Part shown: positions 7,430-54,397 of the stretch, piece by piece | Layout of the letters: each line of letters starts with the position of its first letter | Numbering within the stretch: position 1 is the first letter of the stretch | NCBI RefSeq assembly: GCF_030867095.1 | Contig: NC_081830.1 | Coordinates: 34,455,832 to 34,519,831 of the forward strand | Direction of reading: 5' to 3' | DNA: 64,000 nt | Source: Alligator mississippiensis | Lineage: Eukaryota; Chordata; Crocodylia; Alligatoridae | Position numbers and translations under genes: made by a program | Notes under the pieces: model-generated | What the model was told of the DNA's origin: nothing | The model's database searches: none | The model's input: the letters and a program-made list of their open reading frames with translations, nothing else

Positions 7430-7631
7430 CCAGCAGTTCTCCAGGATATCCAGATAAGTTTCTGTGGGCTGGAAGGCCACAGTTGGGTGGGCAGGGCTCT
7501 TTGTAGCCTGAGGGCTGAGCTGCCAGTGTCTCAGCTTCCCTCTTCCAGCCCAAGACTTGTATGTGGAAGCTGGGGAAGAAATATAGTTCTGTAACTAAGC
7601 TGCATGAGCAAGCTCCCACCCTGCATGCTCA

Positions 7632-9689: not shown

Positions 9690-10470
9690 CTTCTATGTAG
9701 TTGCTGAGGAGGCCATTCAGAATGCTAGAGACTCTGGGGTGCTCTAACACTACCTCTAGACCATTGAGCACTGGTTCTGTGCCCATGTCCCCAGTGGTAT
9801 CTTGTGTGAGTGGATCGTCTGGGCTCTTGGCATGATAAACAGTGGCTCCAGAACTTCTGGATGTGCCAGTCCACCTTCATGGATACCATCACTAAATTGA
9901 CCCCCTACACTGAGAGTGAGGACATCAGCATAAGATGACCTCTCATTCTGGATAATCATGTGGACATCACCATCTGGAATCTGGCCATCCCTAACATCCT
10001 CTGCTCTATCACGAACGACTTTGTCTAAGCAAGTTCAATGCAGCCACCTGGGAAGTGTGCCTGACCATCCAAAAGGTCCTGGCCAACCACCTCATCTGCC
10101 TCTTCAACCTGCAGGAGGTTGTCACCAGATTCTGCTTCATGGGCTTCCCCAACTGCATGTGGGCCATGGACAACCACATCCCCATCCTCTGCATGCCCAA
10201 AGGTGCCCAGGAGTTCATCAATCACAAAAGCTTCTTTTCCATCATCCTGAATCATGTCATTGACCACTGGGAGTGCTTCACCATTGCAGGATGGGTGGGC
10301 AACAACCATGTCAGAGTCTTCTGGAACTCCACCCTCAGCAGACGATGGGGATTGGGCGCTATGCCCACATGGGCTCCAGCATCAGCATTGGCAGCATCTT
10401 CATCCTACCTCTTATCACCAGAGTCCCAGCCTAACCACTACTGCCCAGGCTCATGAAACTCATACCTGAA
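9690..10470 (+). mobile_element. Decayed PIF/Harbinger transposase, unit A
   Basis: This is a relic of a DDE transposase (HARBI1-like). Broken-frame translation gives TIEHWF (about 9755), KQWLQNFWMCQSTFMDTI (about 9835-9890), DITIWNLAIPN (about 9965-9995), then VVTRFCFMGFPNCMWAMDNHIPILC (about 10120-10190, shown here in separate motifs) and FINHKSFFSIILNHVIDHW, ending with VRVFWNSTLSRR (about 10310-10340). This order matches the Harbinger nuclease, where GFPNC.GAIDGTHI carries the first catalytic Asp. The Asp of AMDN remains, but stops at about 9745, 9936 and 10026 and frameshifts destroy the ORF. The same relic lies at the equivalent place in unit C, so it predates the duplication. Confidence 0.75.
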
Positions 10471-14520: not shown

Positions 14521-14756
14521 GTTTTTACGTTTAAGACAACCTTGAGTGGCAGAGCCATGCTATTGGCCCCACTTCGGTGCTAAGAAACTGACAAAAGATA
14601 TTTCTAAAATTCCCTTATGTAGAACCATTAAAAATAGGAATGGGAAAAACCTCAAGAAGTCATTTAATTCACACTACCTGAGCCAAAGATCTGGTGGAGC
14701 AGAAAAAATATCTGCTTACATCGTATTTTAGTCCTTTTGGTTCTCTCCCTGACTAT

Positions 14757-14779
14757 TCTTCTTGCTTTTCTCTCCACAG
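14757..14779 (+). promoter_or_regulatory. Splice acceptor of OR coding exon, unit A
   Basis: A pyrimidine tract ends TTTTCTCTCCACAG, with the AG at 14778-14779, 19 nt before the ATG. The tract and the AGTGAATCAAAGACAA leader that follows are conserved in units B and C, so this is probably the 3' end of a 5'-UTR intron. Confidence 0.72.
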
Positions 14780-14798
14780 AGTGAATCAAAGACAAGGA

Positions 14799-15725
14799 AT
14801 GACCAACCAGAGCATAGTTACTGAGTTCTTACTCCTTGGATTCTTTGAAACTTGGGAGTTGCAGATTTTGCACTTTGTGGTGTTTCTAGTGATCTATCTG
14901 GCAGCCCTGCTAGGAAATCTTCTCATTATCACTGTGGTAGCCCTTGAGCAGTGCCTTCACACTCCCATGTACTTCTTCCTACTCAACTTATCTTTCCTTG
15001 ACCTCTGCTACATCTCCACCACGGTCCCCAAGTCCATGGCTAACTCCATCACCAACAGCAGACTGATCTCTTTCTCAGGTTGTGTTGCCCAAGTCTTTCT
15101 CGTTGTCACCTTGGCAGCTGCAGAGCTGGCTTTTCTCTCGGTGATGGCATATGACCGCTATGTTGCAGTCTGCCTTCCTTTACATTACAGGATAATCATG
15201 AACAGAGATGCCTGTGTCCAGATGGCTGGTTGCTGTTGGTTCATCAGTTTGTTGTACTCCATGTTGCACACTGGGAACACTTTCAGGCTGCATTTCTGCC
15301 AGTCCAATATTATTGGCCAGTTCTTCTGTGATATCCCACAATTACTGAAGATCTCCTGTTCCAATACACAGCCTAATGATATTTTGATGTTTGTCCTAGT
15401 GGCTGTTCTAGGAGCAGCCTGCTTGGCTTTAATAGTGGTGTCCTACAGCCACATCTTTTTGATTGTGCTGCAAATCCCCTCCACCCAAGGGAAGCATAAA
15501 GCTTTCTCCACATGCGTTCCACATCTCACTGTGTTCTGTTTATTTTTTGGAACTGCTACGTTTACATACACACAGCCAAGGTCAGCTTCCTCCTTGACTA
15601 AGGACCTCCTGGCTGCAGTTCTCTATTCTGTAATCCCCCCAGTCCTGAATCCCATCATTTACAGCCTGAGAAACAAGGAGATAAAAGAGGCTCTGAGCAA
15701 ATTACTAGGCAGGTCCTTTTTTTAA
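14799..15725 (+). CDS. Olfactory receptor, OR14-like (intact, 308 aa)
   Basis: G-protein-coupled odorant receptor of the olfactory neuron membrane, expected to signal through Golf; ligand unknown. The ATG at 14799 is chosen over an in-frame upstream ATG at 14694 because it follows the splice acceptor and begins the usual MTNQSIVTEF N-terminus (N3 glycosylation site). Motifs: GN at 39-40 (TM1), PMYFFL 56-61 (TM2), C95 and C177 for the loop disulfide, MAYDRYVAVC 116-125, SY 215-216 (TM5), KAFSTC 234-239 (TM6), PVLNPIIYSL 281-290 (TM7) and a short basic tail. Length is normal for the family. No lesion is visible. ELQILHF in the N-terminal part and overall text point to family 14 (the gamma-c type expanded in birds and crocodilians). 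It lies in the same orientation as the paralogs in units B and C. Confidence 0.94.
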   Translation: MTNQSIVTEFLLLGFFETWELQILHFVVFLVIYLAALLGNLLIITVVALEQCLHTPMYFFLLNLSFLDLCYISTTVPKSMANSITNSRLISFSGCVAQVFLVVTLAAAELAFLSVMAYDRYVAVCLPLHYRIIMNRDACVQMAGCCWFISLLYSMLHTGNTFRLHFCQSNIIGQFFCDIPQLLKISCSNTQPNDILMFVLVAVLGAACLALIVVSYSHIFLIVLQIPSTQGKHKAFSTCVPHLTVFCLFFGTATFTYTQPRSASSLTKDLLAAVLYSVIPPVLNPIIYSLRNKEIKEALSKLLGRSFF

Positions 15726-17659: not shown

Positions 17660-18110
17660 TTTTCACACTTACCCAGGGAAATGATGTCTCAGATTTTATG
17701 CTCCCACTGACCCAGACATGAGTCAAACCTGCTCTAACTATCCAACGGTAGGCTGGGCCTGACCACCATTCTCTTGAAGTTGACCCAGTGAGTAACCAGG
17801 AGAGGAAGATGCATGAGGCCAGGGTGAGTAGGGTAAGTTAGATAGAGATTGGTTTAGTGAGATGGATGTTTCCACAGAAGGAACGGGGGCAAGGGTTTTA
17901 GGCCCCCATATCCCCCCCTCTTGGGTGCCCAGTGGATTAGTTTCAACACAAGAAAATGGAGGACGCTCTGGGAAATGCCTAAACCTTGAGCAGAGTGCAA
18001 ACTTGGGCCTGATCTGCCCAGAGCCATCCTGGTGTGCAGGAAGGTTCCCCATTCTCCTCGCAGATACTAATGAAGATGCAGGCAACAGCCACAAAGCTGG
18101 GAAAATTCCT
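17660..18110 (+). repeat. Spacer block X, copy 1
   Basis: This runs from TTTTCACACTTACCCAGGG through GCCCAGTGGATTAGTTTCAA to CACAAAGCTGGG. It is a clear paralog of 32025-33835 (TTTTCACACCTACCCAGGG ... CACACAGCTGAG), where a CR1 interrupts it after GTCAAACCTGC. It therefore provides the empty site for that CR1. No coding potential is recognised. Confidence 0.8.
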
Positions 18111-19379
18111 CAACCTGATCTCAAGTCAGGCCCCCAGGGTGCTCCAGCATGCCTTCAGATGCACAAAGGTGCAGTCCACCACCAACATCCAGCATCTGCT
18201 AAGACAATAATTAACACACTCCTTCCTGGGGGCCAGTCAGCTGGTATATGGCTTTGTGTAGCCCCAAACACACTGAGTGCTGCTTTTCTTAGACTGTGAA
18301 TTTATTAATCCAAATATTCAACTTAATTTGTCCCACCAAAGGATACCAATTTGTTTGACCCAAATCAATCAATCAAAATGGTGAATTTATTTTCTTAATT
18401 AATTAATGAAAGGTTCCGTGGTCTAAGTGTTTCTTGGATTCACAAGTTGGAACTGATACAAATTAACCAGTTTATTAATCAGGTAAGTAGTAGTAAGGTA
18501 ACAAACAATTACAAGAACACTTAACACAACTACACAACTGTTATATATTTATTTGATAAGGAATCAATCAATGGCGAAGGGCTTTTATTATACAGCAGTG
18601 CAGTGCCAGTCCTGGTGGCCTCTCTGGAGGAAGAAACCCCTTTCTTTCCTCAGAAAGAAGGCCCCTTGGGAAGGGTGATACTCACTAAGGCTGTGTTAAC
18701 TGCTACTTGCTGTACAAAGCATACCCGGGGGAAAGGTCTGGGGAGCCGACTCAGTCACAGCCGCACTCCACAGAGATCAATGGTGAGGGGAGCCCATGAG
18801 GTCTTGAACAATTCACTCAGGGTCCAAGGTATGATGCTGCTGGTCCAGCTGCTCACTCTCTCTCTCTCTGTACACAGCAACAGCACCTCAAACAAGCAAC
18901 CATGTAACAGCACCCACAACCCACAAGGCCTCTTCCATTCACAAAGCCTCAATCACTCCTGCCAGACCAAAGTATTCAAGCACTCACACCCTCAAGCCCA
19001 GTCATGAACAATCCTACACTCACGTGCACACTCATGCTCCCAGTCATGCGCTGAGTGTTGGTCACAGTGACTTTTACATAGCTGATGCACATGGCACCTG
19101 CCCTCACTGCACTCGCTACTCAAACAGGTAGGCTACTAGGGCATTCCAGCCTCTTGCCCATGCACACTACAACTAAGGTTATCTATAGTTCACTCCTTGA
19201 CCTAGTTTTCCATGCTTATGTGCAGCTATGGTACAGGCTTGTGACTTCATTGACTCAGGCCCTATTTCTGGCCCTACACTTTGAAGAGAAGGAGCCAGAC
19301 AGGCTGAGCCAGACCAATGCCTCAGTTGAAGTTTCTGCACTTTCTTCCTGGCTCTGGGGAAGGGGCAAAGGCATCCCAT
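18111..19379. other. A/B spacer, no gene
   Basis: Contains a short CT run (about 18858-18872) and sequence without recognised homology. No match to the corresponding B/C spacer was seen beyond block X, so one or both have been rearranged. Confidence 0.4.
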
Positions 19380-20255
19380 GTGGGTTCAGAGGGGTTGGGG
19401 GGCCACAGTTGTGTAGGCAGGGCTCTTTGAAGCCTGATGGCTGAGGTGCCAGTGTCTTAGCTTCCATCTCCCAGCCCTTCCAGCCTAGGACTTGAAAACA
19501 GGAGCAGGGGAAGAAAGACAGTCATTCAATTAAAGCTGCCTGAGCAAATTTTACCCAGCATGCTCCATACCTGTGGATTTCATCCCAGCCCTCCCCACCT
19601 CCACTCTGAGCCCTGACCCTCCACCTTTGTTGGGACCACTGTCAGCCTCCCCGCAAAACACCTCCTTTCCCCACTAGTACCAGCCCCCCTGGGGCAGCAT
19701 GACCCCTGCCAACCAATGCCTCAGTCCTTCCTCTGACCCAATCGTAAATCATTACCACAAGACTTTTAATATTTTCATTTTATGTTTTAAATTAAATTAT
19801 TTCTTCCATGTAGCTTCACTGGCTGAGTCCCTGGGTTTCACCACAGCCTTAGTCCCCTCTGCCTCTCTACCTCCAGCTCCATGCTCCATCTACTTCTTTG
19901 CTATCCAACTGGTTTCTATATCCAAAGTCATGTAAAATGGTTACATCTGGAAAGTCACAGTTTTGAAATCAGAGGTGGCATTAAGACTTAACATGTGATT
20001 GCTCAATGTTCATTCTAATATTAACATTACTCACTGAACTGGGATCAGGACTGGGATTGGGTTGGTGGCTCAGGCTCCAGTGGTGTTGATGCCAGCTTTG
20101 CCTTACCTCCTGACCCCACTGGCTCTTGACAGCATAGGAGGATGGGAGGGAATTGGCCCCTGGCTGAGCAGTGGTCTTCCTTCCCCTCTTTAGGAAAAGG
20201 CTATTAGAAAATACGGAACTCATTTTGGAGCAGGCACTTAAGTTTGGCCAGGTTC

Positions 20256-20741: not shown

Positions 20742-23362
20742 CTTGGAATGTGCTAATTGTATTAGGTGGTCAGATCTTGTTATGGCTGACCTTTAAAAAA
20801 CCTGTTAGATCAGCTAATCTTGTAGTTTGCTTATTTTGGGGCCCAGTCAATCCCGTGATCAGTACAAACAGTTAGATTCAACACTTAGGTTAAATTGTAA
20901 CAGACAAATTCCACTTGCGGGTTGCAAACTTGCAAGCGTTGCATTAGCTAATCTTAACTGCTAGACAATTGCCTGGATGTCTCCAAGAGCATATATTTAT
21001 TACTCATGATAGTAACCCCTCTGGTTCTGGCCACCACATGCTTCCCATTCCCTTTGTCCCCAGTCAAGGCACTGCTAGGGCCAGTTTTCCCCACCCTGTC
21101 TCTTGGGGCCCAAACTGTGGGACCTCCATTCTTCTTGCTCCTGAGAAGACTCCCCAGAGCCAGACATGACAACCCAATGGGGAATGGGTGCCAGCCTCTC
21201 TCAACTAGCTTATATAACAATTTGGAGAGCTCTAAAAGCTGTCTGCAGACCCACCTGTGACTCACTGGAGAACCAGCAACAGTAGAAGTGGAGAAATGTC
21301 CCCGGAAATTGTAAGGGGCAAGGATTCATTGGGGTGATGCTTTTTATTGGACCAGTTTCATTGCTGGGATAAAGTTGGATAAACTTTCAAATACAAAGCA
21401 ATCTGCATTATCCTGGTTACAATATCCTGCTTCTGTGCTCTTGCTTAACAGACATGAATTGCATAAACTCACAGAATAGAAGTGTTAACAAGTCCTCCAT
21501 GTGCAGGGCTCCAGGGAATGACTCCTGGCAAGGCCTTAGAGATCACATGTGTTTATGTCTTGTTTTGTTTTGTTGTTTTTTTGGTTTTTTTTTTCTGGCA
21601 GCAATACTTTTCAACTGCCTGTTAAACCTGGAAAGAACTACTTGTGATCATCTGCAGATGGGAATGTGTCAGAGTTTATTTTTTTCTGCTTAGCCTCACT
21701 AAGAAGAAGAAAAGAGTTCTTTTAGATTTTGTGCTTTTGCCATCAAAGGAATTACGTAGGGAGGTCAGTAAATAGTTAGCTTTCTCTGATGATCAATAAT
21801 ATCTTCAAGTTGGAGACAAGCACGGTAATCCTTGAAGGCACCAACAACCTCACCAACACAGTAAGTCCTGTTCTTTTGATAACTTTTAAGAGGAAGATTA
21901 CTGTAGTTCCCACTACCTCTGTGCTTTACATGTGTATCACATTTCAAGGTGGTAAAACTGTCTGTGCCTCATGTTCCCTGTGTTAAAAAACATAGTTTAA
22001 AACTGATTAAAGATCATGATGATTGAAAATCAGAATTTTATAACCTCTTTATATATCCACAATGAAGAAAATTAATTTATTTGCAATGATTCCAATGGAG
22101 GCCTTCTCACTCTGTATGTTAAAATATCAAGTTTGGATTTACAAAGACATCTAAGGATTCAAATGCCCATCAGTTATTAAATGTCAATAAGAATGGAACT
22201 TCTGATTCCCTTTACACTTCTGCAAAGCAAACCACCAAATTCAAATAAAATATTTTAAGAAAAAGTGAAGTAACATATAAGTACACAGAATATAGGCAAG
22301 ATACATTAAAAAATCAAAACAAAACAAAGTCAAACTCCAGTAGTAGAGTGTTGGGGGGGACGGGGAAAGAGGGAGGGGGAGGGGCAGAATGGGAGGTTAT
22401 TTTTTGTTGTTATTGTCTGTTTTTTAAAGTTTTTTTTAAGGGTTTATTTGTTTGTTTTGTTTCTGCTATTATAACTCCCAGGTCATGCAATACAGAATTG
22501 AGCTATTCTCCATCAAAAGAAAAGATTGCATACATATAACTTATGCTTTACATAAAACTTATGATTTATGCACACATGGATATCCCTATAAGCAATTAAT
22601 CTATTATATAATATATGTCTATATTACAAAATATAATAATGTTATATGTAATTGATTTTGTAACCATTCACCTTGCTTTTTACAACATAAATTTAACTCT
22701 ATTATGGTTTCATGTAAAGAATTATATTCCCCCTATTGAAACCAGATCTAGTTCAAGTTCCTAGCTGAAGACTTAATCAACTTGTCAATCATGGTATGCT
22801 GCATTTCAGACCTACTTCCAATTCAGACATTTATGTTCAATAGTTGTTAGCGCTTATACAGAATGTACGAATGGCTAGTTTTAGAAATGGAAGAAAAAAG
22901 AAAAATAACAAAAAACCCACAGACTCACCTAAATTTGTAACCTGTGTGAAATTAATCTGCTCTGAAGATACAGATGTGTGAATTTGTATCCTTCTGATCT
23001 CACTTACCTTCACTTTACTTTGTATTCTCATAGTCTGACATTGCTCCCCTACTTATTTTTAGGTTTGTACCTCCAGCATCCAGCACTCATGTTAGACAAT
23101 GATGCTACACTGTTGTGTTCCTCGCAATTATAGTGTATTTACCTTGAAGACAAATTTCAGTGGCAGAGCTGTTATTAGCCTCCCTTGGAGCTAAGAGATT
23201 AACAAAACATATTTCTAAAATTTCCCTATGTAGAACCATAAGAAATAGGAATGGGAATAACTTCAGGAAGTCATTTAATTCACCCTACCTGAACCGAAGA
23301 TCTTGTGGAGCAGAATGTCTTATTTCATTTTATTTTATTCTTTCTGGTTGTCTTCCTGACCT

Positions 23363-23386
23363 TTCTCCGTGCTTTTCTCTCCACAG
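23363..23386 (+). promoter_or_regulatory. Splice acceptor of OR coding exon, unit B
   Basis: TTTTCTCTCCACAG with the AG at 23385-23386, 19 nt before the ATG and followed by the same AGTGAATCAAAGACAA leader as units A and C. Confidence 0.72.
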
Positions 23387-23405
23387 AGTGAATCAAAGAC
23401 AAGGA

Positions 23406-24341
23406 ATGAACAACCAGAGCATTATAACGGACTTTTTACTCCTTAGATTCTTTGAAACTTGGGAGCTGCAGGTTTTACACTTTGTGGTGTTTCTAGTGAT
23501 CTACCTGGCAGCCCTTTTAGGGAATGTCCTCATTATCACTGTGGTAGCCCTTGAGCAGAGTCTTCACACTCCCATGTACTTCTTCCTACTCAACTTATCT
23601 TTCCTTGACCTCTGCTACATCTCCACCACGGTCCCCAAGTCCATGGCTAACTCCATCACCAACAGCAGACTGATCTCTTTCTCAGGTTGTGTTGCCCAAG
23701 TCTTTCTTGTTATCACCTTGGCAGCTGCAGAGCTGGCTTTTCTCTTGGTGATGGCATATGACCGCTATGTTGCAGTCTGCCTTCCTTTACATTACAGGAT
23801 AATCATGAACAGAGATGCCTGTGTCCAGATGGCTGGTTGCTGTTGGTTCATCAGTTTGTTGTACTCTGTGCTGCACACTGGGAACACTTTCAGGCTGCAT
23901 TTCTGCCAGTCCAATATTATTGGCCAGTTCTTCTGTGATATCCCACAATTACTGAAGATCTCCTGCTCCAGTACACAACCTCATGACATTTTGATGCTTG
24001 TCCTAGCAGCTGTTTTAGGAGGAACCTGCTTTGCTTTAATAGTGGTGTCCTACAGCAACATCTTCTTGTCTGTGTTGCATCTACCCTCCACCCAGGGGAA
24101 GCATAAAGCTTTCTCCACATGCGTTCCACACCTCACTGTGTTCTGTTTATTCCTCGGCACTGCTACATTTACATACACACAGCCAAGGTCAGCTTCCTCC
24201 TTGGCTAAGGACCTCCTGGCTGCAGTTTTTTATTCTGTACTCCCTCCAGTCCTGAATCCCAACATTTACAGCCTGAGAAACAAGGAGATAAAAGAGGCTG
24301 TGAGCAAATTACTTGTCAGGGCTATTTCTTTCCCAAAATAA
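23406..24341 (+). CDS. Olfactory receptor, OR14-like (intact frame, 311 aa)
   Basis: Odorant GPCR, paralog of the unit A gene. The start at 23406 (MNNQSIITDF) follows the splice acceptor; a longer in-frame extension from 23160 is intron and upstream sequence. Family motifs are present: GN 39-40, PMYFFL 56-61, C95/C177, MAYDRYVAVC 116-125, KAFSTC 234-239. Two residues are unlike the family: R14 where ORs normally have Gly in LLLGF, and N286 giving NPNIY in TM7, where a hydrophobic residue is usual. The unit C pseudogene shares NPNIY but not R14. The frame is complete, but these changes could weaken membrane insertion or folding. Ligand unknown. Confidence 0.92.
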   Translation: MNNQSIITDFLLLRFFETWELQVLHFVVFLVIYLAALLGNVLIITVVALEQSLHTPMYFFLLNLSFLDLCYISTTVPKSMANSITNSRLISFSGCVAQVFLVITLAAAELAFLLVMAYDRYVAVCLPLHYRIIMNRDACVQMAGCCWFISLLYSVLHTGNTFRLHFCQSNIIGQFFCDIPQLLKISCSSTQPHDILMLVLAAVLGGTCFALIVVSYSNIFLSVLHLPSTQGKHKAFSTCVPHLTVFCLFLGTATFTYTQPRSASSLAKDLLAAVFYSVLPPVLNPNIYSLRNKEIKEAVSKLLVRAISFPK

Positions 24342-32024: not shown

Positions 32025-33835
32025 CTAGTTATTTTCACACCTACCCAGGGAAAGAATGTCTCAGATTCTATATTCTCACTGACCCAGATGTGAGTCAAAC
32101 CTGCACTTCCCAGGGAAGTCTGGAAAGCTTTCTCTTTGAGAAAATTATCCAGGAGCACATCTGCGAGGGACCAGCAGGGGAGATCATGCTTAGGGTCAAC
32201 CAAAATGGGTTCATTCAAGGCAAATCCTGTCAGACCAACCTGGTGGCCTTCTACGACCAGGTCACAAAATCCTTGGACACAGGTGTCGTGGTAGACATAG
32301 TCTTTCTGGACTTTAGGAAGGCCTTTGACACTGTCTCTCACCCCATTCTCATTAAGAAATTAGGCGACTATGGCATTGATGCCTACACAGTCAGATGGGT
32401 TGCAAAATGGCTGGAGGGCTGCACCCAGAGAGTGGTGGTGGATGGGTCTTTTTTGACCTGGAGGGATGTGGGCAGTGGGGTTCCCCAGGGCTTGGTCCTT
32501 GGGCCCACACTGTTCAACATCTTCATTAGTGACTTGGATGAGGGGGTGAAAAGTACCTTGTTCAAGTTCACAGATGACACTAAGATGTAGGGAGAAGTGG
32601 GCACACTGGAGGAGAGGGACAGGCTGCAACTAGATCTAGACAGGTTACAGGGGTGAGTGGATGAGAAAGGATGGGATTCAATACTGACAAGTGCAAGGTG
32701 CTGCGCCTGGGGAGGAAGAACCAGCAGCATACCTACAGGCTGGGGAACTCCCTTCTAGTCAGCACAGAGGGAGAAAAGGATCTTGGTGTCATTATTGGTT
32801 CCCAAATGAACATGGGCCACCAATGTGGGGACGCGGTCAGGAAGGCCAACCGCACCTTGTCATGCATCCACAGATGCATCACGAGCAATTCCAAGGAGGT
32901 GATCCTCCCCCTCTATGCGACACTGGTCAGGCCTCAGTTGGAGTATTGTGTCCAGTTCTGGGTGCTGCACTTCAGGAGGGATGTGGACAGCATCGAGAGG
33001 GTCCAGAGGAGGGCCACTTGCATGATCAGGGGGCAGCAAGGCAGGCCCTATGAGTGGAGGCTTCGGGACTTGAACCTGTTCAGCCTCCACAAGAGAAGGC
33101 TGAGAGGGGATCTGGTGGCCATCTACAAACTGGCCAAGGGGGACCAGCAGGCTATGGGAGAGTCTTTGTTCCCCCGAGCACTACCAGAAGTAACGAGGAA
33201 TAACGGCCATAAGTTGACCAAGAGTAGATTCAGGCTACATATCAGGAGGCACTACTTCACAGTCAGGGCGCCTAGGATCTGGAACCAACTTCCAAGGGAA
33301 GTGGTGCTCATTCCTACCCTGGGGGTCTTCAAAAGGAGGCTAGACAGCCACCTAGCTGGGGTTGTTTGACCCCAGTACTCTTTCATGCCCACGGCAGGGG
33401 GTCAGACTTGATGATCTGCTCAGGTCCCTTCTGACCCTACTTACTATGAAACTAAGTACTCTAACCATGCAACGGTGGGCTGAGCCTGGCCACCCTTCTC
33501 TTGGAGCAGACTCGGTGAGGAACCAGGAGAGAAAAATAAATGAGGCCAGGGTGAACAGATGAATTCAGACAGAGGTTGGCTTAGTGAGGTGAATGCTACC
33601 CTTGAAGGGACTGCGATAAGAGTTTTCAGTCCCCCATATCTTCTACTCCTGGGTGCCCAGTACATTAGTTTCAACACAAGGAAATGGAGGATGCTCTGGG
33701 CAATGCCTAGGCCCAGAGCAGCAGGCAAACTTGGGCCTGATCTGCTCAGATTAATGCTGGTGTACAGGAATCTTCCCCACTTTCCTCACAGATACTGACA
33801 AAGATGCAGGAAGTACCAGCCACACAGCTGAGAAC
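32025..33835 (+). repeat. Spacer block X, copy 2, interrupted by a CR1
   Basis: Paralog of 17660-18110. The left part (32025-32104) and the right part (33461-33835) are continuous in copy 1. The right part keeps CTGGGTGCCCAGTACATTAGTTTC-like text and the CAGATACTGACAAAGATGCAGG segment. Confidence 0.8.
32105..33460 (+). mobile_element. CR1 LINE, 5'-truncated, inserted in block X
   Basis: RT coding text in sense: [34 protein letters not shown] (motif A), [15 protein letters not shown] (motif B), FKFTDDTKM followed by TAG (32588-32590, Trp codon in relatives), then after a short broken stretch GFNTDKCKVLRLGRKN (32671 on) through to HLAGVV (stop 33367-33369). 3' UTR and tail TACTATGAAACT follow. 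It shares FTDD with the inner CR1 at 27483. Copy 1 of block X gives the empty site GTCAAACCTGC|TCTAAC; no convincing target duplication is seen, as is usual for CR1. Confidence 0.92.
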
Positions 33836-33837
33836 GT

Positions 33838-33852
33838 TCTTTACAACAACCT
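33838..33852. repeat. Target-site duplication, left copy (VEGFA retrocopy)
   Basis: TTCTTTACAACAACC, repeated perfectly at 34959-34973. The pair brackets the VEGFA-derived insert. Confidence 0.82.
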
Positions 33853-34264
33853 TGAGGAACATTCCTTATGGAGTCCATTGTCTGTACTGAAAGTGTTGTG
33901 CTCTACCAATTCTTCATTTTAGGATTCATTTGGATTAGTGTTTTTTGTTGTTGTTGTTTTTTCCTGTGTTGGTGAGAAAGCAGGTTCCAGAAACAGGGCT
34001 GTTCCCCCTTCTCCACTGCTCACAGTCTCAGCTTGTCACATCTGCAGGTGGACTCATTTAACACAAGCTACCTTGACTTGGAAAGTGAATCTGTGTTTTT
34101 GCAGGGATATTTAAAGGTCTAGAGATCTTGTACAAACAAGTATTTTCTCCTCTCTGAGCAAGGCTCACAGTGATTTTCTTGCTTAGCTTTGACGTCTATC
34201 TTTGGTCTGCATTCACATTTACTGTGCTGTAAGAAGTTCATGTTTGCTATGAGTTGACTCTGAT
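33853..34264 (-). pseudogene. VEGFA: VEGFA processed pseudogene, 3' half
   Basis: On the minus strand from about 34264 this reads [30 protein letters not shown], then directly [17 protein letters not shown], and on through CKNTDS and NESTCRCDK to a stop at 34020-34022. This is the end of VEGF-A: exon 4, exon 5, exon 7 and exon 8 coding segments joined with no introns and without exon 6, i.e. the VEGF165-type isoform including the heparin-binding domain. Gln codons have become TAG at 34119-34121 and 34068-34070, and several cysteines are lost. About 170 bp of apparent 3' UTR follows to 33853. It is the continuation of the 5' half at 34522-34850, but on the opposite strand. The isoform and family calls are firm; the UTR call is inference. 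Confidence 0.9.
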
Positions 34265-34521
34265 GGTGCAGATCTGCCCTGGCTGGAGTTCGGGGAGATG
34301 TTGGGCATGGCCTGGGAAGTTGTCTTGCATCAGCTTCTTGTGGGCATTGCACTGGAAGCCCTTTTTTAAAGCTGCTCTCAGTGTTGGGGCTAGAAACCAC
34401 AATGGAGGCATCAATGTGAGCACACGGCCAGGCGGGGCTAGGTTGCAGGTGTGGGCACTGCAGCAGAGAGGGGAAGGTGGCGCATGGTGAAAAGCACCCC
34501 TGCTGCCCTGCACCAGGAGCC
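34265..34521 (+). other. Probable 5' UTR portion of the VEGFA retrocopy
   Basis: Lies between the inversion joint (about 34264) and the mutated VEGFA start codon. By position it should derive from the 5' untranslated region of the mRNA on the inverted (plus) segment. No independent confirmation is possible here; no coding motif was seen. Confidence 0.45.
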
Positions 34522-34850
34522 AGGAACAATCTGCTTGCTTGGATCCACTAGGGGCTCGCAGCGCTGCTCTATCTCCACAACACCAAGTTGTCACAGGCAG
34601 CTCCTACCCTGAGGGAGAAGAAACACAACTAAGTTATCAAGTTTTTTGGATGTTTATGAGCACAACTACTGCAGGACAATTGAGACCCTGGTGCACATAT
34701 TCCAGGAGCATCCTGATGAGGTGGAGTACATCTTCAGTCCATCCTGTGCGCCCTTGATGGGGTGTGTGGGCTGCTGCGGTGATGAGGGCCTAGAGTGTGT
34801 CCCTGGAGAAATGCACAATGCCACCATGGAGATCACAAGAATCAAACCCC
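34522..34850 (+). pseudogene. VEGFA: VEGFA processed pseudogene, inverted 5' half
   Basis: Encodes the signal peptide and the receptor-binding PDGF/VEGF cystine-knot domain of VEGF-A. From 34522: AGG where the start ATG is expected, then [11 protein letters not shown] (34549-34551, Trp in VEGFA), GLAALLYLHNTKLSQAAPT, a TAA at 34630-34632, VIKF, a 1-nt insertion in the T run 34642-34647, then [53 protein letters not shown] and [10 protein letters not shown] at about 34850. Exons 1 to 4 are joined without introns. Text breaks after RIKPH, exactly where the minus-strand half resumes (HQSQ). At least four inactivating changes are visible, so it is non-functional. Confidence 0.92.
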
Positions 34851-34958
34851 ACTCCTGGTACCATGTAAAGTTGAGTGCTATTAAAGAAGTATACCTTCCT
34901 TATAAAAACATCTTTTTTATTATTTTCATGAAAGACTCTAGCAATGTTTTGCAGACAA
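34851..34958. other. Unexplained 108 bp at the outer edge of the VEGFA insert
   Basis: AT-rich sequence between the end of VEGFA homology (RIKPH) and the right target duplication. It is not the next part of VEGFA coding sequence. It could be captured RNA or DNA, an unrecognised piece of VEGFA UTR, or later rearrangement. Confidence 0.4.
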
Positions 34959-34973
34959 TTCTTTACAACAACC
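34959..34973. repeat. Target-site duplication, right copy (VEGFA retrocopy)
   Basis: TTCTTTACAACAACC, identical to 33838-33852. Confidence 0.82.
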
Positions 34974-35171
34974 AAGTGCTCTCTTATCTCTCAACTGGTC
35001 TTCCTCAGTTCTGAATAACAAAACCAACTGCTCTTGTGTTTCCATTACCAGTAACTATTCTGTTAAAGAGACCATGTACTATTTCCAAAGAGGCCATAGT
35101 TATGTGGGCAGAGCTCTTTGAAGCCTGAGGACTGAGCTTCCAGTGTCTCAGCTTTCCTCTTTCAGACCTCT

Positions 35172-35234
35172 TCGGGGTCGGACTCGATGATCTATTGAGG
35201 TCCCTTCCGACCCTAACAGCTATGAATCTATGAA
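35172..35234 (+). mobile_element. CR1 LINE, about 63-bp 3' tail
   Basis: GGGGTCGGACTCGATGATC through GACCCTAACAGCTATGAATC, the last bases of CR1 in sense. Units A and B lack it: CTCTTCCAGCCC in A, CTCCCAGCCC in B. Confidence 0.85.
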
Positions 35235-39344: not shown

Positions 39345-39990
39345 ATTTATGAGCAAATCAGCACTGTATATTGCATTTCTAGACTTGTCAAGAGCTTCTG
39401 ACAGTACAGATAGAAGTAAACTTTGGGAGAAATTGATAAATTATGGGATTGACCCTTCTCTTTTGCATTTGTTGATAGAATATTATAAAGATACATGGGC
39501 CCAAGTTAGGTGGGGATTGAAGGGTGACTTTACACACAAAAAAAATCACATACTAAAAGGGGTTAGACAAGGATGTATTTTGGCCCCTTTGTTATTTAAT
39601 CTTTACATGGATGACATTGTTGGAAATATGCAGGCTGCGCATTTTTATCCCCCAAAAATAATAGCAACCCCAATTCCTATTTTAATGTATGCAGATGACA
39701 CTGTTATACTGTCAAGAACTCCTATTGGATTACAGAGAGCAATTACAACTTTTGAGCAGCTTTGTGGACAGAAGAACTTAAAGATAAATTATGATAAATC
39801 CAAAATAATTTACTAGGGAAGTTGTTGGATGAAATATCCATGGAATATGAGGGGAACTACACTTGAAGTTGTGAAAACCTATAGATATTTGGATGTGTTA
39901 TTCACAGCTTTTCCATCATGGAAACATCATATTCAGTCAGATAAAACTAAGGCATCCCAATCTGCTGTGGCTATAAAGAAATATGAAGCC
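39345..39990 (+). mobile_element. Non-CR1 LINE fragment, reverse transcriptase palm
   Basis: RT coding sequence unlike CR1. The first frame (39349-39816) has IAFLDLSRASDSTDRSKLWE (motif A region, one catalytic Asp position altered relative to a typical AFD), ILKGVRQGCILAPLLFNLYM (motif B), ILMYADDTVILSRTP (motif C, intact YADD) and LKINYDKSKIIY. After a stop and frame change, TLEVVKTYRYLDVLFTAF continues at 39829-39960. It is 5' and 3' truncated, and found only in unit C. Clade not determined; the motif order fits a non-LTR retrotransposon. Confidence 0.8.
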
Positions 39991-40733: not shown

Positions 40734-41514
40734 GTAACCATTCACCCTGCAGTGTACAACATACAGATAACTCTATCATGGTTTCATATACAAAATTCTA
40801 CTTCCCCTATTGAGACCAAATCTAGTCTAAATTCCTAGCTGAAGACTTATTCAACGTGTGACTCATGATATGCTGCATTTCAGATCCACCTTAACATTAG
40901 ACACATATGCTCAGTAGTGGTTAGCACTTATGCAGAGTGTATGAAAAGCCAGTTTTAAAAATGGAAGAAAAAAGGAAAATAATAATAATAAAAAAGAATC
41001 ACTTAAGTTTGTAACATTTGAGACATTAATTTGATCAAAAGTTATAGATTTATTTACTTTCATTATACTAAAAAAATATTATTTCATGTTTCATTTCTTA
41101 ATGAAAATGTGGTATTAGGCTGACATCTCATGAGCAGTGTGTGTGACTGTGTATCCCTCTGATCTCACTTGACTTTCACTTTGCTTTGTATTACCATGTT
41201 TTGACATTGTTCCCCTGCTTATTTTTAAGTTTGTACCTCCAGCATCCAGCAGATTGTCTTAAGACAATCCTGCTACAGTGTGGTGCACCTTACAGTTATA
41301 GTATATTTACCTTTAAGACAACCTTGAGCGGCAGAGCCATTAAATTGGCCCCACTTCATTGCTAGGAAGCTGATATTTCTAAAAGTTCCTGATGTAGAAC
41401 CATAAGAAATAGGGATGGAAAAACCTCAAGAAACCCTACCTGAGCCAAAGATCTTCTGGAGCGGAAAGAATATCTGCTTTCATTTTAATCTAGTCCTTTT
41501 GCTTCTCTCTCTGA

Positions 41515-41538
41515 TTATTCTTGCTTTTCTCTCCACAG
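41515..41538 (+). promoter_or_regulatory. Splice acceptor of OR coding exon, unit C
   Basis: TTTTCTCTCCACAG with the AG at 41537-41538, 19 nt before the ATG; conserved with units A and B although the gene is broken. Confidence 0.7.
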
Positions 41539-41557
41539 AGTGAATCAAAGACAAAGA

Positions 41558-42509
41558 ATGACCAACCAGAGCATAGTTACTGAGTTCTTACTCCTTGGAT
41601 TCTTTCATAATAGGGAGTTGCAGATTTTGCACTTTGTGGTGTTTCTAGTGATCTATCTGGCAGCCCTGCTAGGAAATCTTCTCATTATCACTGTGGTAGC
41701 CCTTGACCGGCATCTTCACACTCCCATGTACTTCTTCCTATTCAACTTATCCTTTCTTGACCTCTGCTACATCTCCACCACGGTCCCCAAGTCCATGGCT
41801 AACTCCATCACCAACAGCAGACTGATCTCTTTCTCAGGTTGTGTTGCCCAAGTCTTTCTTGTTGTCACCTTGGCAGCTGCAGAGCTGGCTTTTCTCTTGG
41901 TGATGGCATATGACCGCTATGTTGCAGTCTGCCTTCCTTTACATTACAGGATAATCATGAACAGAGATGCCTGTGTCCAGATGGCTGGTTGCTGTTGGCT
42001 CATCAGTTTGTTGTACTCTGTGCTGCACACTGGGAACACTTTCAGGCTGCATTTCTGCCAGTCCAATATTATTGGCCAGTTCTTCTGTGATATCTCACAA
42101 TTGCTGAAGATCTCCTGCTCCAATACACAGCCTAATGATATTTTGATTATTGTCCTAACTGCTGTCTTAGGAGGAACCTGCTTTGCTTTAATAGTGGTGT
42201 CCTACAGTCACATTTTCTTGACTGTTTTGCATATACCCTCCACCCAGGGGAAGCGTAAAGCTTTCTCCACGTGTTCCACACCTCACTGTGTTCTGTTTAT
42301 TCCTCGGCACTGCTACATTTACATACACACAGCCAAGGTCAGCTTCCTCCTTGACTAAGGACCTCCTGGCTGCAGTTTTTTATTCTGTACTCCCTCCAGT
42401 CCTGAATCCCAACATTTACAGCCTGAGAAACAAGGACATAAAAGAGGCTTTGAGCAAATTACTTGGCAGGACCATTTCTTTTACCAAAGAAATGAATTCT
42501 TGTCTTTGA
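41558..42509 (+). pseudogene. Olfactory receptor, OR14-like, 2-nt deletion pseudogene
   Basis: Third paralog of the tandem OR14-like set. The ATG at 41558 follows the conserved acceptor (MTNQSIVTEFLLLGFF). Motifs GN, HTPMYFFLFNLSFLDLCY, MAYDRYVAVC, FFCDISQLLKISC and KAFSTC are intact. Just after KAFSTC, CCACGTGTTCC replaces CCACATGCGTTCC of the paralogs, a 2-nt deletion at about 42271-42273, which sends the frame to a stop at 42358 and removes TM6 and TM7. The original frame resumes as CLFLGTATFTYTQ...PVLNPNIYSLRNKDIK to 42509. It is a single lesion in an otherwise well-preserved receptor, so loss is recent, or this could be an assembly error. Confidence 0.9.
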
Positions 42510-53434: not shown

Positions 53435-53452
53435 GTAAAACAGTGAGAAGAT

Positions 53453-54397
53453 ATGATACAGGGGAATGATTCTGTTATAATGGAATTCATGCTCCTGGGG
53501 ATCTCCGAAAAGCCTGAGCTACAGTCTCCACTCTTCTTCATCTTCCTGATTGTCTTCATCCTCATCCTGATGGTGAACATTCTGGTTATCATCACCACAG
53601 CATGTGACCCTGTGCTTAGCACCCCTATGTACTTTTTCCTCAGGAACTTGGCTTTCATGGAGATCTGCTATACCTCTGTCACCATCCCCAAAATGCTGAT
53701 TAACCTTATATTGAAGAAGAAGACCATCTCTTTTGTTGGCTGTGGTGTCCAGTTCTACTTTTTCCTCTTCCTGGGTACTGCATTGTGTTATATTCTGGCT
53801 GTTATGGCTTATGATCGTTATGTTGCCATCTGCAACCCGCTTCAGTATGCAGCCTTCATGAGTAGGAAGGTTTGTATCCTGCTGGTATCAGGATGTTGGG
53901 TTATTGGCATATCTGTGTCCCTTAGACAAGTAGCCCTGGTATTCAGCATGCCCTTTTGTGGCTCCAAGATTATCAACCACTTCTTTTGTGATGCGCCACC
54001 TCTGTTCAGGCTTCTTTGCTCAGACATCTCTATGAATAAGGTGGAAATAGTTTTGACAAGCATCTTGATCATCATCATCCCTTTTTTACTCATCTTTTTC
54101 TCATACATTCGCATAATCACCACTATACTCAGGATCCAATCAGTAGATGGGAGGAGCAAGGCCATCAACACTTGTTCCTCACACCTCATTTCTGTTTCCC
54201 TGTTCTATGGCAGTGCCATATTTGTATACCTGAGACCCAATTCTAGTAACACACCAGGTGCAAATAAACTGCTCTCTCTCTTCTACACAGTGACCCCTGC
54301 CATTTTAAACCCAATCATTTATAGCCTGAGGAACCACCAGGTAAAAGGGGCTTTAAGAAAACTATTAGGTGGAAAGATAGCTCCTCAAAACACCTGA
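53453..54397 (+). CDS. Olfactory receptor, class II, family-10-like (intact, 314 aa)
   Basis: Odorant GPCR of the olfactory neuron membrane, expected to couple to Golf; ligand unknown. It starts MIQGNDSVIMEFMLLGISEK (glycosylation site at N5). Motifs: VN at 41-42 in TM1 (GN in most ORs), TPMYFFLRN 57-65, C97 and C179 for the loop disulfide, MAYDRYVAIC 118-127, SY 217-218, KAINTCSSH 236-244 (KAFSTC in most), PAILNPIIYSL 282-292 and a tail GALRKLLGGK. Length is normal and no lesion is visible. MEICYTSVTIPKML and the long TM5 with many Ile residues separate it from the OR14-like set and are nearest to family 10 type receptors; the exact family needs a tree. It is isolated, 5 kb from an OR pseudogene of similar type. 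Confidence 0.93.
   Translation: MIQGNDSVIMEFMLLGISEKPELQSPLFFIFLIVFILILMVNILVIITTACDPVLSTPMYFFLRNLAFMEICYTSVTIPKMLINLILKKKTISFVGCGVQFYFFLFLGTALCYILAVMAYDRYVAICNPLQYAAFMSRKVCILLVSGCWVIGISVSLRQVALVFSMPFCGSKIINHFFCDAPPLFRLLCSDISMNKVEIVLTSILIIIIPFLLIFFSYIRIITTILRIQSVDGRSKAINTCSSHLISVSLFYGSAIFVYLRPNSSNTPGANKLLSLFYTVTPAILNPIIYSLRNHQVKGALRKLLGGKIAPQNT

Follow-up and report, generated by a model that had tools for sequence, protein, structure and literature searches.

The window analysed here is a stretch of 64,000 nucleotides (genome G000, contig C7, positions 34455832-34519831; 2.35 Gb assembled in 195 contigs) that holds intronless VEGFA sequence on both strands, and the question it raises is which kind of element reverse transcribed the mRNA and how one half of the copy came to be inverted. 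An earlier note had ascribed the copy to an L1-like LINE whose target-primed reverse transcription involved twin priming, and had read a flanking 15-bp repeat as the target-site duplication (TSD). The anatomy described below is direct evidence, at the sequence level, of LTR-mediated retroposition and makes an LTR origin of the retrocopy nearly certain; the spliced mRNA was probably reverse transcribed by a Ty3/gypsy-type LTR element, not a LINE, from two strong-stop primers.

The VEGFA segment is a retropseudogene derived from spliced mRNA, with one half inverted. Alignment to the spliced parent placed the 5'UTR, exons 1, 2 and 3, and exon 4 up to RIKPH in the 5' half (34460..34851, plus strand), where 329 of 388 aligned bases are identical (15% divergence). 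The 3' half (33852..34266) has its sense on the minus strand and comprises exon 4 from HQSQ, exons 5, 7 and 8, and ~160 nt from the start of the 3'UTR, with 357/401 aligned bases identical (11% divergence) and indels of 14 bp and 3 bp. Pfam searches recovered a PDGF/VEGF domain in the 5' half (E 1.3e-18) and a VEGF_C domain in the 3' half (E 2.5e-8, 34.2 bits, which is under the curated cut-off of 40). The intron-bearing parent was located exon by exon at C1:168954787-168977140, and comparison with it confirmed the opposite strands of the two halves and the lack of introns at the exon borders that had been read from the window; exons 1-2-3-4-5-7-8 are fused in the copy, while the parent lies elsewhere, as in a processed pseudogene. 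The two halves were also said to meet at the same codon of the parent, which is borne out by an overlap of 3 nt in the parent mRNA. Coding capacity has been lost: ATG has become AGG, exon 3 has gained 1 bp, the reading frame is interrupted by stops and the halves lie on opposite strands, so that the longest stop-free VEGFA stretch is ~80 codons. A genome search gave no second VEGFA retrocopy among the 43 matches listed (best 40 of 46 candidates), all matches to VEGFA parts being the parent or the window. It is hardly conceivable that the arrangement was created in assembly: there is no N anywhere in the window, including between 34264 and 34522, where a join had been considered in the earlier note, the genome is in as few as 195 contigs, the copy is 11-15% diverged from its parent and carries lesions of its own, and its flanks match paralogues on both sides.

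The 15-mer TTCTTTACAACAACC is present exactly at 33837-33851 and at 34959-34973, so the perfect repeat described previously stands, with its left coordinate corrected by one base (33837, not 33838). It is an ordinary word, found at 9 exact places in 2.35 Gb against 13 for its reversed control, but its recurrence at so short a distance is unusual: 600-1700 bp downstream, a second copy was seen for 8 of 63780 window 15-mers, the spacing of TTCTTTACAACAACC being 1.1 kb. Its supposed role as a bracket around the insert could not be upheld. The right 15-mer corresponds to positions 117-131 of a 226-bp LTR and has LTR sequence on both sides; it falls within a dispersed repeat, which spans 34864-35089 and extends 116 bp beyond the end previously assigned to the insert. 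A homologue was found in all 26 other fetched LTR copies, with 1-5 mismatches (three or fewer in 24 of them). The left 15-mer (33837..33851, minus strand) is a stub of the same LTR positions, which matches 34959-34973 exactly at the place where the parent 3'UTR diverges, and of which only 33840-33849 (10 nt) are unambiguous, since TTC could belong to the flank and CC to VEGFA. We dropped the idea of a private LTR variant common to both 15-mers (most copies have GTAAAGAG, the window GTAAAGAA) because the differing base lies in the TTC that possibly came from the target flank.

Genome searches with the insert returned many repeat copies, in which the repeat starts between 34846 and 34864, and a longer query gave fuller copies extending to about 35087-35091. 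Ten copies (L013-L016, L018, L019, L022, L026, L028 and L029) continue from the LTR into a primer-binding site (PBS) and a shared internal region, whereas in at least seven others (L017, L024, L027, L033, L035, L036 and L038) a purine tract like AAAAAGGGGAGATG stands before the LTR and other DNA comes after it. These two kinds of copy, together with seven LTR pairs at a spacing of 3.9-7.8 kb, are arranged as 5' and 3' LTRs are, and the repeat at 34864..35089 (minus strand) was therefore identified as an LTR; it is complete, 226 bp long, and of the 5' kind. The ~108 bp that follow RIKPH and had lacked an explanation, the right 15-mer and the 116 bp beyond it form this single LTR; a reading of the ~108 bp as distal VEGFA 3'UTR was rejected. 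The internal region of L013 is common to 9/9 other PBS-bearing 5' LTR copies and absent from L030. A piece from inside one LTR pair matched RT_RNaseH (PF17917, 5.6e-18) and PF17919 (3.7e-13), and a piece from inside another matched the integrase core (rve, 3e-8); two of the four internal pieces tested matched no Pfam family. Paired LTRs, PBS, purine tract, RNase H and integrase together mark the driver as an LTR retrotransposon; it is a low-copy element, which we take to be of the Ty3/gypsy type from the occurrence of PF17917 and from sequence habit rather than from a tree. R-U5 copies of it are present at no fewer than 38 places including the window, as a lower bound.

These observations bear directly on the LINE reading, which is very improbable. 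Twin priming by a LINE would account for the inverted half and for the halves meeting at one codon, and direct repeats of 15 bp have a length typical of L1 according to PMC4245944. The right 15-mer is, on the contrary, part of a dispersed LTR with its homologue in every other copy fetched, PBS and LTR abut the VEGFA sequence, and no poly(A) tail is present at either end of the insert. The 3'UTR of the copy breaks off in mid-sequence, ~160 nt past the stop codon, where that of the parent goes on, so that neither poly(A) nor priming at the mRNA 3' end is seen. The paralogous flank described below indicates loss and not duplication at the left edge. Since the 15-mer is LTR sequence, the statistics of TSD length and inversion that would favour L1 (PMC4245944 and PMC2912911) are void here, and both the target duplication and LINE twin priming as the cause of the inversion were rejected. 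Simple insertion with a TSD also predicts that LTR positions 132-226 (34864-34958 on the plus strand) lie to the left of the insert, and they lie to its right.

Between the VEGFA sequence and the LTR lies an 18-nt PBS, TGGTACCAGGAGTGGGGT (34846..34863, minus strand), which is shared with other 5' LTR copies and is complementary to the 3'-terminal 18 nt of tRNA-Leu(taa), the isoacceptor with anticodon UAA. A 21-nt tRNA-end pattern had 4 genomic matches against 0 for its reversed control, and two of these four loci were fetched, both being tRNA-Leu with anticodon taa. In the usual tRNA numbering, A58 immediately precedes the 18 copied nucleotides, and its methylation (m1A58) normally stops plus-strand strong-stop synthesis.

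The retrocopy is joined directly to sequence of the LTR element on both sides, to PBS and LTR at 34846-35089 and to the stub at 33837-33851. At the PBS/VEGFA junction the element reads to ...TGGGGT and is followed by antisense VEGFA; the parent antisense strand has ...GATGGGGTTTAATTC, so that TGGGGT is common to both (34846-34851, ACCCCA on the plus strand). Element sequence reaches PBS nt 18, and the 6-nt overlap puts the switch anywhere from nt 12 to 18. At the 3'UTR junction, sense VEGFA ends in ...CAAGG and continues with TTGTTGTAAAGAA, which is LTR sequence from position 117 on; the parent at this place has ...CAAGGCACCCGCC, and GG is shared. Microhomology at the switch points, here 6 nt (ACCCCA) and 2 nt (GG), is a mark of LTR-mediated retroposition. 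The cDNA running from the 3'UTR terminates at CCATCAG of the mRNA, within the ACCCCA stretch that the PBS primer covers.

LTR position 117, where the LTR reads GGTTGTTG, would be the start of R. One copy, L021 (C14:35402486-35402597), has sequence from just upstream of the purine tract joined to the LTR at this same GG, without purine tract and U3; of the 26 copies that were aligned to a single LTR, it alone starts exactly at GG, and its breakpoint could instead stem from a later deletion at GG. Five further copies (L018, L032, L033, L034 and L037) start 7-21 nt upstream of GG, at least L032 through divergence and not breakage.

Read in the sense of the element (minus strand of the window), the product consists of a complete LTR, 18-nt PBS, antisense VEGFA from RIKPH to the 5'UTR, filler, sense VEGFA from HQSQ to the early 3'UTR, and the start of the putative R. 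The mechanism we favour would begin with a VEGFA mRNA presumably packaged with the element, on which plus-strand strong-stop DNA, with its natural 3' end at PBS nt 18, paired its TGGGGT with ACCCCA in exon 4, from where it was lengthened as far as the mRNA 5' end. The minus-strand strong-stop DNA, with a 3' end that would be the R start, would then have moved to GG in the VEGFA 3'UTR rather than to the 3' R of the element, and its extension would have gone on up to the first primer. In this model, one reverse transcriptase collided with the other primer, and the halves therefore meet at one codon. Joining of the two cDNAs end to end would give the inversion, and the molecule would have integrated via its intact U3 end. 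A deletion joined at TTC may finally have taken away target DNA and the greater part of the other R-U5 end, leaving a stub of 10-15 nt that resembles a TSD.

An LTR-element retrocopy could also have arisen by ordinary serial template switching, in which the reverse transcriptase of the element copied VEGFA mRNA in a particle and the inversion, later or at the DNA level, followed through a switch to the nascent strand or through repair during integration, without two strong-stop primers. We consider this unlikely, if the most serious competitor: it accounts equally for LTR, PBS and chimaeric junctions, and further switching is suggested by the filler between the halves, but it needs the element to end at PBS nt 18, the other junction to fall at the putative R start and the halves to end within 3 nt of each other, all by coincidence.

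This filler, which weighs against the two-primer mechanism, is 193 bp long (34267-34459) and resembles VEGFA solely at 34278..34335 (plus strand), a 58-bp piece like intron 1 of the parent (C1:168954990-168955044) that is out of order. Its 43-bp core was found with E 2.7e-5 in 60 kb and scored 41.1 bits, where the best of 300 shuffles reached 32.6; the piece sits upstream of the 5'UTR of the retrocopy. The remaining ~135 nt have no known source: the 11 nt at the inversion joint (34267..34277) matched nothing, and for the 124 nt at 34336..34459 the 60-kb VEGFA locus and the other fetched loci gave no match, while the own-genome search gave the segment itself alone, with one first-look candidate, in a search of limited reach that also missed the intron-1 match. 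The simplest guess for the origin of the filler is that the template was switched at the 5' end of the mRNA to another RNA.

The target site was reconstructed from paralogous segments within the window. The right flank (35090..35173, plus strand) abuts the LTR end and is paralogous to 19401-19474 and 7474-7551; the paralogy begins at 35091/35092, matching 19401 on and 7474 on, and a flank that starts directly at the LTR end is as expected of a junction made by integrase. The left flank (33459..33839, plus strand) is paralogous to 17732-18108 of the window at 78.7% identity, its last three nucleotides (TTC) being shared with the stub, and the paralogue runs 1.29 kb further before the right flank resumes. 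A dispersed repeat at 18013-18254 crosses 18108/18109 unbroken in 15/53 non-self rows (best 40 of 52 candidates), and because its copies are continuous there, the left flank of the insert is truncated, with at least 146 bp lost. The loss of target DNA at the left edge was at least ~0.15 kb and probably 0.29-1.29 kb, the latter if the other sequence of the paralogue is ancestral; a dispersed repeat at about 18278-19279 may be private to the paralogue. Within the locus one LTR is complete and the other end is truncated. The short stub and the lack of a normal TSD are explained by this loss of target together with ~95 nt of R-U5, joined at TTC. Duplications belonging to the element itself are 5 bp in all three LTR pairs whose flanks were inspected, one of them with a mismatch.

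Two separate events, an older LTR insertion and a VEGFA retrocopy that landed beside or inside it, followed by inversion and deletion, would draw on the deletion that did happen on the left and on the position of the locus amid duplicated olfactory-receptor segments. Such a history is improbable, given that VEGFA meets the element at the very end of the 18-nt PBS, with 6 shared nucleotides, and that its other end meets the same LTR at GG.

As for the wider significance of the single-event, two-primer reading, LTR retrotransposons may have a twin priming of their own, in which both strong-stop DNAs prime one foreign mRNA and yield an inverted host-gene copy that has the PBS at one edge and the R start at the other, with the VEGFA locus as a fossil of the reaction; we hold this general claim to be slightly better than evenly balanced. 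LTR-mediated retroposition as such is already known and was reportedly treated by Tan et al. 2016 (Genome Res). Among the open-licence papers listed, none described an inverted copy with the two natural strong-stop ends on one mRNA, and none reported a VEGFA retrocopy of this kind.

In two reviews (PMC5408686, PMC8232201), LTR-mediated retroposition is described as the copying of host mRNA with template switching at short similarities, which leaves an intronless copy joined to an LTR, as is seen here. The VEGFA copy departs from that description in being split and inverted, in having its junctions at the PBS end and at a possible R start internal to the LTR, and in having only one complete LTR. 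L1 twin priming (PMC4245944, PMC2912911) likewise has two DNA ends that prime one RNA, and the copy it gives is inverted and shows microhomology where the primers sat; its primers are two ends of target DNA, whereas those at the VEGFA locus would be cDNA ends of the element, and the locus has neither a LINE-type TSD nor poly(A). Capture of host mRNA by LTR retroelements is also reported in crocodilians, with KIT-ligand in CrocERV29 and nectin3 in CrocERV31 (PMC4299795). Those captures are described there as present in several copies, with open reading frames under purifying selection, in contrast to the one broken and inverted VEGFA copy, which has no element genes at its locus. LTR reverse transcription has two natural cDNA ends, and the junctions of the VEGFA copy fall at them or close by, which provides a specific and testable model for inverted host-gene copies. 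It also calls for caution, as exact direct repeats flanking a retrocopy may derive from the element and not from a target-site duplication.

Divergence within five LTR pairs of the family amounts to K2P 0.115-0.18, and the VEGFA divergence (11% and 15%) is of the same order; the window LTR differs from 19 other LTRs by K2P 0.17-0.27. Crocodilian substitution rates are about 7.9e-10 per site per year, which would date the LTR pairs at roughly 70-115 million years. Another element copy (L030:1853-3098, C1:301596317 on) departs from the family right past the PBS, as the VEGFA copy does; it may represent another capture, or else a nested insertion, and its reading frames hold no recognisable gene.

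Elsewhere in the window, a reading frame at 9995-10456 appears Harbinger-transposase-like by eye, with no Pfam match. A reverse transcriptase fragment at 39346-39816 (RVT_1, 3.2e-22) is, by eye, unlike the surrounding CR1-like copies and may belong to another LINE clade. Duplicated segments that carry olfactory receptor genes surround the locus, and genes or pseudogenes of this family (Pfam 7tm_4) were found at 2106-2924, 14682-15725, 23148-24341, 41489-42358 and 53447-54397.
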